This document shows positions 7,307 to 62,381 of a stretch of DNA of 64,000 bases, in pieces. The DNA comes from Streptococcus mitis 17/34 (lineage in GTDB: Bacteria; Bacillota; Bacilli; Lactobacillales; Streptococcaceae), in the NCBI GenBank assembly GCA_000430305.1, contig ASZZ01000001.1, forward strand, positions 62,001-126,000, written 5' to 3'. Both the position numbers and the translations under genes were made by a program. Each line of letters starts with the position of its first letter. Position 1 is the stretch's first letter. Under the pieces are notes generated by a model. The model was not told the DNA's origin and ran no database searches. It saw only the letters and a program-made list of their open reading frames with translations.

Positions 7307-7335
7307 TTGACTTTTAAATTTTAAAGGTTTATACT
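7307..7335 (+). promoter_or_regulatory. Promoter of the mgtA leader
   Basis: TTGACT (7307-7312) and TATACT (7330-7335) are separated by 17 bases, giving a start near 7342, just before the M-box. The -35 box lies in a small inverted repeat (AGTCAA/TTGACT) that might also weaken readthrough from pepQ. Confidence 0.7.
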
Positions 7336-7344
7336 GAAAAACGA

Positions 7345-7483
7345 AAACGGTAGGTGAGGCTACCATAGGGATACGGATGACTACCGCAAAGCAGTGGAGA
7401 CACTACTCGTTGGTCAACAGTCCTGGTCGCGAAGGCTAAGACTAAGCTCATTTCATTGCCCTATGGAGTTAAAGCTTGAACGA
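7345..7483 (+). promoter_or_regulatory. M-box magnesium riboswitch (ykoK leader)
   Basis: The segment follows the M-box consensus closely: GGTAGGTGAGGCTACC, then ATAGGGATAC, a variable hairpin region, GGTCAACAG, the GCCCTATGGAG block and the 3' TTAAAGCTTGAACG. M-boxes bind several Mg2+ ions and turn off Mg2+ transport genes when magnesium is plentiful. The location between a good promoter and an MgtA-type ATPase fits exactly. A terminator hairpin follows 23 bases later, so control is probably by transcription termination. Identified by eye; a covariance search (Rfam M-box, RF00380) would confirm. Confidence 0.9.
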
Positions 7484-7505
7484 AAAAACAGATATTTAGT
7501 TTTTT

Positions 7506-7534
7506 AATCCTGCCATTTTATGGTGGGATTTTCT
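7506..7534 (+). terminator. Terminator of the M-box expression platform
   Basis: AATCCTGCCA pairs with TGGTGGGATT (ten pairs, two of them G-U, six-base loop... of which TTTTA is unpaired) and runs into TTTTCT. It sits between the aptamer and the leader ORF. A competing AAAAAAC/GTTTTTT pairing lies just upstream. Confidence 0.6.
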
Positions 7535-7564
7535 ACTGTTTAAATCAAAGAAAGGAGATAGACG

Positions 7565-7636
7565 ATGCAAATTGACGACCATCCGGAACCGCACATACAC
7601 AGCCAATCGCTGATTTGTGTCGTTCTGCCCTTATAA
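7565..7636 (+). CDS. Candidate 23-residue leader peptide of mgtA
   Basis: An ATG with an excellent ribosome site (AAAGGAG, seven bases away) opens a 23-codon ORF starting M-Q-I-D-D-H-P-E-P-H-I-H and ending in a hydrophobic stretch with one Cys before TAA. It lies between the M-box terminator and the Mg2+ ATPase gene. The early acidic/proline run resembles in kind the E-P-D-P start of the enterobacterial mgtL leader peptide, where such nascent chains destabilise ribosomes at low Mg2+. No sequence homology is claimed. Codons 11 to 15 form the left arm of a strong hairpin, so translation should remodel the RNA. Function is inferred. Confidence 0.6.
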   Translation: MQIDDHPEPHIHSQSLICVVLPL

Positions 7637-7675
7637 AGTGATTGGTCTCTGTGTATGAAACACATCATTCATACA
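7595..7675 (+). promoter_or_regulatory. Competing hairpins between leader ORF and mgtA
   Basis: Hairpin A: 7595-7611 pairs with 7637-7656 (17 pairs including ATACACAG/CTGTGTAT and CCAATCGCT/AGTGATTGG, with a three-base bulge). Hairpin B: TGTATGAA (7652-7659) pairs perfectly with TTCATACA (7668-7675), three bases before the mgtA ribosome site AGGAG (7679-7683). A and B share bases 7652-7656 and exclude each other. A ribosome reaching the leader stop codon at 7634 would open A. This is the geometry of a leader-peptide switch. Confidence 0.6.
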
Positions 7676-7689
7676 GATAGGAGAAACCA

Positions 7690-10350
7690 ATGAAAACTAC
7701 AAAAGAAAGATTAGCAACAGCTATTCAAGTCCCTTTAGACGAGAGTCTAACTTTTTATCATACCAGTTTAAACGGTTTGACAGAGGAACAAGTCGAACAA
7801 AATCGTGACCTATATGGTGAAAACACCATTACCAAAGGTCAAGAAGACAGTATCCTCAAAAAGATTTACGAATCGATCATCAATCCCTTTACAATCATCT
7901 TGCTGGTTATCGCCGTGATTTCCTTAGTGACCAATGTCTGGTTGGCAAAACCAGGGCAAGAAGATCCGACGACTTCCATTATCATCGTTGTCCTAGTCCT
8001 CATTTCTGGTGGCATTCGATTTGTCCAAGAACTCCGCAGTGATAAGGCTGCGACCAATCTATCAAAAATGATTGTCAACACAGCGACTGTCATTCGTCAA
8101 GGAGAAATTCAAGAAGTACCTATCGATGACTTGGTAGTGGGTGACGTGGTTAAATTAAGCGCTGGAGATATGATTCCAGCAGACCTTCTTTTATTTGAGT
8201 CGCGCGATTTCTTTGTCCAACAGTCTGGCTTGACAGGAGAAAGTGATTCTGTTGAAAAATTGGCCTTGACCAAGGCAACAGTTCAACAACCTGATAGTCT
8301 GCTAGAAGCCGAATCCTTGGCTTTTATGGGAACCAATGTCTTATCTGGTAGTGCCAAGGCCGTGGTTTTGGCGGTTGGCGATGATACCATGATGGGGGCC
8401 ATTGAGCAGACCCTGAACACCTATGATGAGCCCACTTCGTTTGAACGAGAGATGAATAGTATCTCTTGGCTCTTGATCCGTTTGATGTTGGTCATGGTGC
8501 CCATCGTTTTCTTGTCCAATGGTTTAACAGATGGCGACTGGCTGGAAGCTGGCGTATTTGCTTTGAGTGTTGGTGTTGGATTGACACCTGAGATGCTTCC
8601 TATGATCATCACGGCCAGTCTAGCAAAAGGTTCTATTATCATGGCCAAGGAAAAGGTGGTTATCAAGAAACTCAATGCCATACAGGACTTAGGGGCTATT
8701 GATATCTTGTGTACAGATAAGACAGGAACTCTAACCCAAGACGAAATCGTTCTAGAATATCCCTTGGACATCCACGGACGCTTGGATTTGACCGTTTTGA
8801 GACGAGCTTATCTTAATTCCTACTTTCAAACTGGCTTGAAAAATTTGATGGACAGAGCCATCATCAAACGGACTGAAAAGGAAGCAAAAGAACACGCTCT
8901 CTTGCAAAATCTAGATCAAACCTTTCAAAAAATAGATGAGCTTCCCTTTGATTTTGAACGTAGACGGATGAGTGTTATCGTTAAGGATGAACACGAAGTT
9001 GTTAGTTTGGTAACCAAGGGTGCCCTAGAGGAAATGCTTGCGATTTCCAGTCATGCGGAATACCAAGGAGTGATTACTCCCTTGACAGATGCTATTAGAG
9101 AAGAAATTTTAGCGGAAGTACGACAACTCAATCAACAAGGTTTGCGTGTCTTGGGAGTGGCCTATAAGTCAGGTTTGAGGGAAGGTCATTCCTATACAGT
9201 TGATGATGAAGGGGATATGATTCTAACTGGTTATTTAGCCTTTCTAGATCCTCCTAAACCGTCTGCAGCACCAGCAATTAAGGCTCTGTTAGAACATGGG
9301 GTTCAAACAAAGATTTTGACGGGAGACAACGAAAAGGTTACCCAAGCAGTCTGTGAAAAGGTTGGTTTGGATATCAATCAGATGCTGTTGGGATCGGAAA
9401 TTGATCAGATGAGTGATCAAGAATTGGCCCAAGCTGTAGAGGAGGTAACTGTCTTTGCCAAACTTTCTCCTGACCAAAAAGCACGGATTATTTTGCAATT
9501 TAAGGCTAATGGTCATGCTGTCGGCTATATGGGAGATGGAATCAATGATGCTCCTTCTATGAAAGTTGCAGATGTGGGGATTTCTGTTGATACAGCAGTA
9601 GATATTGCCAAAGAAACAGCTGATGTTATCCTACTTGATAAGGATCTCATGGTGCTTGAAAAAGGACTTGTTGAAGGACGTAAGGTCTATGCAAATATGA
9701 CCAAATATATCAAGATGACAGTGAGTTCTAATTTTGGGAATATCTTATCCCTATTGGTCTCTGGAATCTTTTTACCCTTTTTACCGATGGCACCAGTCCA
9801 TTTGATTATTCTAAATCTAGTCTATGATTTGTCTTGTATTGCCTTGCCTTTTGACAAGGTGGATAAAGATTTTTTGAGAAATCCGCATACCTGGGAAGCT
9901 AAGTCCATCACGCGTTTTATGGTCTGGATGGGTCCGATCTCTTCTGCCTTTGATATTTTGACCTTTATTTTGCTCTATTTTATCATTGTCCCCATGACGA
10001 CAGGTCATGCCTATGTTCATGGAGCAGAGTCGGCTGTAGGATTTATTGTCTTGTTCCAGACAGGTTGGTTTATCGAGTCTATGTGGTCACAGACCATGGT
10101 TATCCATATGCTGCGTTCAGCCAAAATTCCCTTTTTACAAAGTCGTCCAGCTTGGCTAGTCCTTGTGACAACCTTATTGGCTGCAGCCTTTGTGACCTTC
10201 CTTCCCTACAGTCCACTCGCAAGCCTACTTCATCTCACTCCTTTAAAACCGATTTATTTCATCTTCTTACTTTTCATCATTATTTTGTATATGATTAGCG
10301 TGACAATTGTGAAAAAAATCTATATCAAGAAATATAAAGAATGGCTGTAA
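7690..10350 (+). CDS. mgtA: Magnesium-translocating P-type ATPase
   Basis: An 886-residue P3B-type ATPase importing Mg2+ across the membrane. Landmarks: SGLTGES actuator motif, PEMLP in the ion-binding membrane helix (from residue 300), the phosphorylated Asp 343 in DKTGTLT, KGA in the nucleotide domain, and GDGIND at about 615-620. The C-terminal membrane region has LVYDLSCIALPFDKVD, typical of MgtA/MgtB. AGGAG precedes the ATG by six bases. Control by the upstream M-box, and perhaps by the leader peptide and hairpins, makes it a low-magnesium gene. I do not recall this gene between pepQ and spx in pneumococcal reference strains, so it may be accessory. Confidence 0.93.
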   Translation: MKTTKERLATAIQVPLDESLTFYHTSLNGLTEEQVEQNRDLYGENTITKGQEDSILKKIYESIINPFTIILLVIAVISLVTNVWLAKPGQEDPTTSIIIVVLVLISGGIRFVQELRSDKAATNLSKMIVNTATVIRQGEIQEVPIDDLVVGDVVKLSAGDMIPADLLLFESRDFFVQQSGLTGESDSVEKLALTKATVQQPDSLLEAESLAFMGTNVLSGSAKAVVLAVGDDTMMGAIEQTLNTYDEPTSFEREMNSISWLLIRLMLVMVPIVFLSNGLTDGDWLEAGVFALSVGVGLTPEMLPMIITASLAKGSIIMAKEKVVIKKLNAIQDLGAIDILCTDKTGTLTQDEIVLEYPLDIHGRLDLTVLRRAYLNSYFQTGLKNLMDRAIIKRTEKEAKEHALLQNLDQTFQKIDELPFDFERRRMSVIVKDEHEVVSLVTKGALEEMLAISSHAEYQGVITPLTDAIREEILAEVRQLNQQGLRVLGVAYKSGLREGHSYTVDDEGDMILTGYLAFLDPPKPSAAPAIKALLEHGVQTKILTGDNEKVTQAVCEKVGLDINQMLLGSEIDQMSDQELAQAVEEVTVFAKLSPDQKARIILQFKANGHAVGYMGDGINDAPSMKVADVGISVDTAVDIAKETADVILLDKDLMVLEKGLVEGRKVYANMTKYIKMTVSSNFGNILSLLVSGIFLPFLPMAPVHLIILNLVYDLSCIALPFDKVDKDFLRNPHTWEAKSITRFMVWMGPISSAFDILTFILLYFIIVPMTTGHAYVHGAESAVGFIVLFQTGWFIESMWSQTMVIHMLRSAKIPFLQSRPAWLVLVTTLLAAAFVTFLPYSPLASLLHLTPLKPIYFIFLLFIIILYMISVTIVKKIYIKKYKEWL

Positions 10351-37359: not shown

Positions 37360-37375
37360 AATCATCAATTTTGTT

Positions 37376-37462
37376 GAGTGTTATGATGATGGAGTCTTGT
37401 GCTCTTAGTCTAGCTCTGGTCTACCGCTAGGATTTCGGTCCTAGCGGGAACACTCATCATAA
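37376..37462 (+). ncRNA. Structured 3' RNA after rplQ (candidate ncRNA)
   Basis: A central perfect hairpin CCGCTAGGA/TCCTAGCGG with loop TTTCGG (37424-37447) is enclosed by two overlapping, mutually exclusive closing stems: GAGTGTT/AACACTC (37376-37382 with 37449-37455) and TTATGATGA/TCATCATAA (37381-37389 with 37454-37462). Alternative pairings of this kind suggest a switch or an sRNA. It might belong to a known streptococcal motif such as the asd RNA, which I could not verify. Confidence 0.5.
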
Positions 37463-62282: not shown

Positions 62283-62337
62283 GTAAATAATCATTTGTCG
62301 TAGGTTTTGTCTGAAATATTGTCCAGACAAGGCTCAC

Positions 62338-62381
62338 AGCAGTTAAATCTTCTGAAAAAGTCAGATTTAGCTGCTCTTTTT
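62338..62381 (+). terminator. Attenuator in the rpoB leader
   Basis: AGCAGTTAAATCT (62338-62350) pairs with AGATTTAGCTGCT (62363-62375; one G-U), followed by CTTTTTG. A complete intrinsic terminator between the promoter and rpoB. A smaller GTCTG/CAGAC hairpin precedes it. RpoB expression must depend on readthrough or on a second promoter in the remaining 150 bases. Confidence 0.7.

Follow-up and report, generated by a model that had tools for sequence, protein, structure and literature searches.

The mgtA leader and its M-box

This study concerns the 5′ leader of mgtA, the gene for a magnesium-translocating P-type ATPase, in a 64,000-nucleotide stretch of the Streptococcus mitis 17/34 genome (GCA_000430305.1, contig ASZZ01000001.1, positions 62,001 to 126,000 of the forward strand), referred to below as the window. 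An earlier note, made from the letters of this DNA, had listed between 7307 and 7700 a promoter, an M-box, a terminator, a 23-codon open reading frame (ORF) with a ribosome site and two mutually exclusive hairpins, and had proposed that the ORF adds a peptide-based magnesium sensor to the riboswitch. All of these parts were found again, and the analysis makes it likely that the MgtA pump is under two layers of magnesium control, one exerted by the M-box, the other by a ribosome-destabilising leader ORF acting through mutually exclusive RNA pairings. The features are as follows:

7307..7335, + strand: promoter-like site of the sigma-70 type (TTGACT-17-TATACT), 10 of 12 consensus matches, called by consensus only
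7344..7495, + strand: M-box magnesium riboswitch aptamer (RF00380), full-length model match (positions 1-169)
7506..7532, + strand: terminator-like hairpin of the M-box expression platform, 10 bp stem and short T run, read from the sequence
7553..7557, + strand: leader Shine-Dalgarno (SD) sequence AGGAG, seven bases upstream of the leader ORF
7565..7636, + strand: leader ORF, ATG start, 23 amino acids, MQIDDHPEPHIHSQSLICVVLPL; from the ORF listing, selection on the first codons and conservation
7571..7591, + strand: acidic/proline run I-D-D-H-P-E-P, proposed ribosome-destabilising element (ratio of non-synonymous to synonymous changes, pN/pS, 0.015 against 0.905 downstream)
7562..7572, + strand: segment a, leader start region, can pair with c (98.4% of alignment cells paired over 23 sequences)
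7594..7610, + strand: segment b, 5′ arm of hairpin 1, within the leader ORF (core helix 97.6% paired)
7613..7623, + strand: segment c, late in the ORF, can pair with a (minimum-energy fold, alignment)
7638..7657, + strand: segment d, predicted partner of b (hairpin 1) or of e (mgtA SD and start), from folding and alignment
7652..7675, + strand: hairpin 2 of the earlier note, apical part of the predicted d:e stem (sequence, minimum-energy fold; present in 15 of 23 aligned leaders)
7679..7692, + strand: segment e, mgtA SD and start region, predicted to be sequestered by d (sequence, folding, alignment)
7690..10350, + strand: mgtA, magnesium-translocating P-type ATPase (TIGR01524 match)

The first layer appears to be an ordinary M-box with a terminator-like platform. 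A covariance-model search of the window bore out the earlier M-box call, matching RF00380 with 89.6 bits against a cut-off of 44 (E = 2.8e-18). The arms of the terminator-like stem (7506-7515 with 7521-7530) are followed by the short T run; the stem was not listed by a strict terminator scan of the window. Inspection by eye shows similar stems, made up of other letters, in relatives. Promoter-like sites of the quality seen here occur 6 times in 1 kb, where 2.5 are expected, which makes this one weak on its own. The mgtA product matches the TIGR01524 model with 1079 bits (curated cut-off 611). A known Rfam leader following the M-box was considered and rejected, the sole match at E up to 1 being L10_leader, with 18.2 bits, under the cut-off of 44.

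Conservation of the leader ORF in Streptococcus

Among 284 Streptococcus genomes, 148 contain an M-box. The codon pattern for D-D-H-P-E-P was found in 130 of the 284, at a single site per genome; the same pattern read backwards matched 10. Every one of the 130 sites lies downstream from the M-box, on the same contig and strand, at a distance of 74-162 bases in 122 genomes and 800-804 bases in 8. Each of the 18 M-box genomes lacking the pattern was inspected, which revealed eight leaders with DDYPEP, five with MPNDDHPSQ, and one each with MSSDDHPIS, MPEDGHPEK, MQIDDHTEP, MLSDDYSEK and MDNSPVPEPS, the last lying before an mgtE-like gene. An acidic leader start is present in 148 of the 148 M-box-bearing genomes, being known in 130 of them from the codon string and its place.

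The ORF on which the earlier note had built its second sensor proved conserved in relatives: start codon and GGAG at the correct distance are kept in 165 of 165 aligned leader loci, a figure that counts some genomes more than once, as named and unnamed copies. Undisrupted Streptococcus mgtA leaders range in length from 18 to 32 residues. The loci within L001-L181 (L numbers designate leader loci and regions) that do not carry the ID[DE].[PT]EP type are L001, L004, L006, L025-L027, L104, L105, L107, L172 and L174, all with other acidic starts, L048 (a run of N) and L109-L111 (Abiotrophia, Granulicatella and a related record).

In another Streptococcus (G051, locus L002), the M-box is followed by a leader, MDNSPVPEPSLIVKG..., situated 191 bases upstream of a gene that looks mgtE-like by eye. 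Sanguinis/cristatus-type genomes carry a 203-codon gene between the M-box and the leader ORF (L085:1732-2343, L078:1732-2343), glutathione-transferase-like by eye only.

Selection on the peptide start

In 27 distinct leader sequences from the 165 loci, pN/pS is 0.015 for the codons of I-D-D-H-P-E-P and 0.905 for the next nine codons (8-16). Rows for this calculation were picked by a motif covering ID[DE].[PT]EP, a choice that favours conserved first codons; leaders picked blind show the same start in nearly all that align. Third codon positions vary with the amino acids unchanged (GAC/GAT, CCG/CCA/CCC, GAA/GAG), and changes in the acidic/proline codons are almost all synonymous, as would be anticipated from the note's proposal. 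Because the ratio is so low in the first codons and so much higher after them, the start of the peptide appears to be selected as peptide and the remainder of the ORF to behave as RNA. Such a pattern fits a leader in which a short N-terminal element would act on the ribosome and the sequence behind it is retained for RNA pairing.

Alternative pairings in the leader RNA

Compared with dinucleotide shuffles, region 7540-7700 has a better fold (z = -2.73), matched by 3 of 200 shuffles. In hairpin 1, b pairs with d (7594-7602 with 7649-7657, 7603-7610 with 7638-7645). Hairpin 2 (7652-7658 with 7669-7675) ends three bases before the mgtA AGGAG (7679-7683) and shares bases with hairpin 1, five by the earlier count, 7652-7657 in our re-count. 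In the minimum-energy fold, moreover, 7641-7645 pairs with 7687-7691, which extends into the mgtA start codon, and the partner of 7646-7649 is 7681-7684, part of the SD sequence. Since d pairs with the mgtA SD and start in this fold, hairpin 2 is best described as the predicted tip of a longer stem, d:e, that would hide both. The b:d and d:e pairings exclude each other because both use d. The same fold joins the leader start (7563-7572) to 7613-7622 in the late ORF (a:c), a pairing that crosses b:d.

Pairing statistics were obtained from an alignment of 23 leaders (A1), in which kinship among the sequences inflates such counts. In the b:d core, 97.6% of the cells are paired, as against 14-42% in slid controls, and two pairs show changes on both sides (double changes); the corresponding figures for a:c are 98.4% and 29-52%, again with two doubly changed pairs. 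We also scored the ability of d to pair with both b and e in 44 leaders, chosen by hand and with their starts supplied. In 17 of the 44 leaders this switch score is higher than in 59 or all 60 of the dinucleotide shuffles, about 1.4 being expected. Among the Granulicatella and Abiotrophia-type leaders, which are not alignable with the others, L110 and L111 beat 60 of 60 shuffles and L109 beats 57 of 60.

The later parts of several leader ORFs (L190, L195, L197, L200, L204, L206 and others) share a DNA string like TTATTRTCTATYTGTTT, which is read in varying frames and is able to pair with the start of the leader. Eighteen of the 165 leader loci (L055, L057, L064, L066, L067, L074 and 12 more) have a repeat of about 105 bases or more inserted between leader and mgtA; where read by eye, it occupies the loop of the sequestering stem, and the stems themselves are undisturbed. 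The gap exceeds 90 bases in 20 loci, L045 and L153 included. The later leader of L045 (Streptococcus mitis ColumbLawn) has given way to a similar repeat into which the ORF continues, and L153 is a like case; these two loci constitute a natural variant that retains the acidic start and lacks the switch.

Predicted direction of the switch and absence of Rho

When nascent prefixes ending before the mgtA site were folded, the mean probability of b:d pairing over the 23 leaders was 0.58 with no ribosome; a ribosome on the early codons raised it to 0.92, and one on b lowered it to 0.00. For the same 23 leaders, the mgtA SD-AUG region has a mean unpaired value of 0.76 if b holds d, as against 0.42 if d is free. 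In parasanguinis-, australis- and vestibularis-type leaders, the RNA alone does not form b:d, and an early ribosome raises its probability from 0.00-0.08 to 0.80-1.00. The absence of b:d from the ribosome-free RNA is due to a:c in L079 (0.90), L092 (0.97) and partly L093 (0.51), and to other pairs in the rest.

None of the 284 Streptococcus genomes has the Rho RNA-binding domain; the same search was positive in 9 of 14 control genomes. With no Rho in the genus, Rho-dependent control in the style of the enterobacterial mgtL leader, on which the earlier note had drawn, is therefore rejected for Streptococcus, and control should be translational as in Salmonella mgtQ-mgtB. By analogy with the latter, Rho-free translational control is the likely mode.

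Acidic leaders in other genera

M-boxes were detected in 278 of 395 genomes sampled from the order (Streptococcus included). We collected 103 regions upstream of mgtA-type genes from other genera; these are mostly top-scoring matches rather than a random sample, and several share a genus. A blind rule was applied to them (ATG, 8-60 codons, SD match of at least 5, best ORF within 300 bases). L290 was placed in this test set, its gene being mgtA-like by eye; L252 (no start found), L294, L295 and L305 (mgtE-like or unresolved by eye) and L302 (start unresolved) stand outside both the test and control sets, and L312-L325 are not among the 103.

The rule yields an ORF in 74 of the 103 regions. Two or more D/E occur within residues 2-10 in 54 of these 74 leaders, as against 20.7% of nucleotide-shuffled starts. 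Of the 74, 64% have D/E as residue 2 and 57% as residue 3, the values for residues 4-30 being 0-24%. At least one acidic leader was found in 19 of 31 genera, with starts such as MDDSSQ, MEDSEP, MGDDPQ, MPEPDS, MSGDDP, EEVEEPDS, NDSPGDD and DPDSS. None of 22 other M-box genes, whose N-termini by eye did not look like those of magnesium pumps, has a comparable ORF; among 40 other genes of the window, three do, one of them with two D/E.

Eight regions were taken from outside the order. Six of these (L314-L319), from more distant Bacilli, show an M-box followed by a leader starting MEGSPS, MEDGHS, MDSSPS or MDDSSS, four of the leaders having an SD match of only 4; L312 and L313 show neither M-box nor acidic leader. 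A terminator-like hairpin, identified by eye, lies between the acidic leader and mgtA in L314-L319, which suggests transcriptional rather than translational attenuation there. In its core, the two-tier design put forward in the earlier note passed the comparative tests in Streptococcus; it is confined neither to the mitis operon nor to streptococci.

The window also contains four Cia-dependent small RNAs (RF02379; 39290-39437, 44206-44300, 44396-44491 and 46790-46882) and L17DE and Lacto-rpoB elements at 37375-37447 and 62293-62350, respectively.

Discussion

The following mechanism is proposed. At low Mg2+, the M-box would let transcription pass the terminator, and ribosomes translating the leader would pause or drop off at the D-D-H-P-E-P codons. 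With a ribosome stopped early, b would be free to pair with d, leaving the mgtA SD and start exposed (ON); a ribosome running through b would allow d to pair with the mgtA SD and start (OFF). In some relatives, the ribosome-free RNA might also be OFF, aided by the pairing of leader start and late ORF (a:c). What we infer in this scheme is that the leader ORF is translated, that ribosomes drop off when Mg2+ is low, and which way the switch works. Computed support covers its parts, selection on the peptide start, the kept and mutually exclusive b:d and a:c pairings, the absence of Rho and the spread to other lineages. The core of the earlier idea, a peptide-based sensor placed after the riboswitch, has withstood comparison (start and SD in 165 of 165 loci, synonymous changes, hairpin 1); hairpin 2 in its original form and the mgtL mechanism have not.

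Several observations weigh against the proposed scheme. The double changes in b:d all come from one sequence, L102, and one slid control of a:c (+2) has three doubly changed pairs, as against two in the true helix. The inner d:e helix is 88.4% paired with no double changes, its sixth pair being absent in 9 of 23 sequences. Hairpin 2 is missing in 8 of the 23 leaders; in the other 15 it is fully paired but hardly varies, likewise with no double changes, so that of the covariation expected by the earlier note in both hairpins only that of hairpin 1 was seen. In the eight leaders without hairpin 2, d reads ..CTCC.. opposite GGAG; the SD itself would therefore be paired by other letters, and the conserved feature appears to be the longer SD-hiding stem rather than hairpin 2 as first drawn. 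The switch score is unremarkable beside that of shuffles in 17 of the 44 leaders (18 or more of 60 as high) and is intermediate in 10. Among the leaders of other genera, the blind rule finds no ORF in 29 of the 103 regions, including 8 of 8 from genus g9, and some members of genera g4 and g32 have a non-acidic octapeptide before mgtA. This octapeptide, MVKRCI(I/L)(S/L) or MIKRCILT, is preceded by a 7-8 base SD in L208, L254, L255, L257, L258 and L259 and is possibly another kind of sensor.

The folding results also include adverse points. In prefix folds of the window, the probability of b:d is already 0.86 without a ribosome, and a:c does not form (0.00-0.04) in any of the 15 mitis/sanguinis-type leaders, though the pairing is conserved. 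Equilibrium folding with ribosome masks was run on 20 leaders; in the full-length fold of the window, for which the values are quoted, accessibility of the SD-AUG region is alike with and without an early ribosome (0.44 and 0.43); placed at the stop codon, a ribosome would also mask d and make the mgtA site accessible (0.74). The OFF state must therefore involve refolding between ribosomes.

The opening of the mgtA site by a ribosome at the stop codon (from 0.43 to 0.74) is what would be expected from ordinary translational coupling, in which any leader ribosome melts the sequestering stem and the acidic start tunes leader translation with no sensing of magnesium; d begins two bases after the leader stop codon, in keeping with this. 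Coupling nevertheless seems unlikely to us, as selection on the peptide is limited to the acidic/proline codons, acidic starts recur in unrelated sequences, and leader and pump translation were measured as inversely related in the analogous mgtQ system (passages of PMC8092293). Less probable still is an attenuator in which proline (or histidine or aspartate) codons would sense tRNA charging, with mgtA linked indirectly. Proline codons do recur in many leaders, and the Salmonella mgtP leader is described in passages of PMC8092293 as responding to charged tRNA-Pro; many leaders of other genera, however, are acidic without proline in the first ten codons (MDDSSQ..., MEDSS...), acidity being the commoner trait, and the ORF sits after a magnesium riboswitch and before a magnesium pump.

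Strong conservation of start codon and ribosome site would also suit an ORF encoding a functional small protein, such as a regulator or subunit of MgtA. This reading is disfavoured by the pN/pS of 0.905, which leaves almost no constraint on the peptide past the seventh codon; leader length varies besides, and C-termini differ among lineages that retain the pairing. We hold it to be very improbable, and give equally little credence to the opposite view, that only RNA pairing is selected, the acidic codons being a by-product of a:c and b:d in an ORF not meaningfully translated. The a:c pairing does take in the start codon and conserved nucleotides, but the D-D-H-P-E-P codons lie mostly outside a and b, and their third positions vary with the amino acids constant.

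If two-layer control holds, a riboswitch and a peptide sensor for one ion are stacked on a single mRNA. To our knowledge, regulation by acidic, ribosome-destabilising nascent chains is known only from enterobacteria; the present leaders would extend it to Gram-positive bacteria, including a genus without Rho. On balance we lean slightly towards the broader view that the ribosome serves as a general second magnesium sensor in Bacilli. Unrelated acidic leaders would then have emerged or been reshaped many times downstream of M-boxes, ahead of MgtA and in some cases MgtE, and magnesium uptake would be doubly gated, by aptamer and by ribosome, in streptococci without the help of Rho. It becomes testable why M-boxes before pumps, and not those before the other genes examined, precede a leader ORF. 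The many unrelated leaders would further provide a natural collection from which to learn which acidic/proline starts destabilise ribosomes at low Mg2+.

Comparison with known systems

In searches of the open-access literature, preprints excluded and judged from listings and the openings of abstracts, we found no account of a Gram-positive mgtA preceded by an M-box and then by an acidic leader ORF; PMC10219788 contains no magnesium or mgtA terms, and the magnesium/mgtA passages of PMC13009471 do not bear on the leader. M-box (ykoK leader) riboswitches are described as preceding corA, mgtE and mgtA (PMC4072509), in an account that, in the part available, has no second, peptide-based layer, unlike the streptococcal mgtA leader. 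In Mycobacterium tuberculosis pe20, an M-box controls a conserved upstream ORF, rv1805A, via anti-SD pairing plus Rho, the role of the peptide being unknown (passages of PMC12810186). The likeness lies in the layered control by an M-box and then a conserved small ORF; unlike in the streptococcal leader, those passages propose no acidic ribosome-destabilising start for rv1805A (PMC12810186).

The mgtL leader of Salmonella and E. coli has an EPDP-like start before mgtA, and drop-off at low Mg2+ raises mgtA expression; mgtL acts through Rho-dependent termination (as described in part of PMC11282234). The streptococcal leader resembles it in being a short ORF that begins with acidic and proline codons ahead of a magnesium P-type ATPase gene, and differs in that Rho, and with it Rho-dependent termination of mgtA, is absent from Streptococcus. 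The nearest known system appears by analogy to be Salmonella mgtQ-mgtB, where we know of no M-box. Passages of PMC8092293 describe mgtQ as an ORF of 8 codons, with early Asp/Glu codons, lying between mgtC and mgtB in a PhoP-controlled operon; stems 1:2 and 3:4 hide the ribosome binding site, stem 2:3 frees it, and in experiments MgtB falls when either the start codon or the acidic residues are lost. Shared with mgtQ-mgtB (PMC8092293, same passages) are a short ORF with early Asp/Glu codons, exclusive stems, a magnesium transporter downstream and control that would act at translation. The streptococcal leader has these codons behind a strong SD, and its predicted stem hiding the ribosome binding site (d:e, without double changes) is exclusive with an anti-sequestering stem (b:d, with double changes). 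The candidate counterpart of stem 1:2, which would restore the OFF state, is a:c, a pairing kept in the alignment but absent from the prefix folds of mitis/sanguinis-type leaders. Unlike mgtQ, its ORF has 23 codons and occupies a 5′ leader behind an M-box in Gram-positive bacteria, and the likeness drawn here is one of features. The leader kind itself is thus known; what is probably new is the use of acidic ribosome-destabilising leaders as a second magnesium sensor behind M-boxes. Because leaders differ even within the order, convergence is likelier than common descent with the enterobacterial mgtQ and mgtL.

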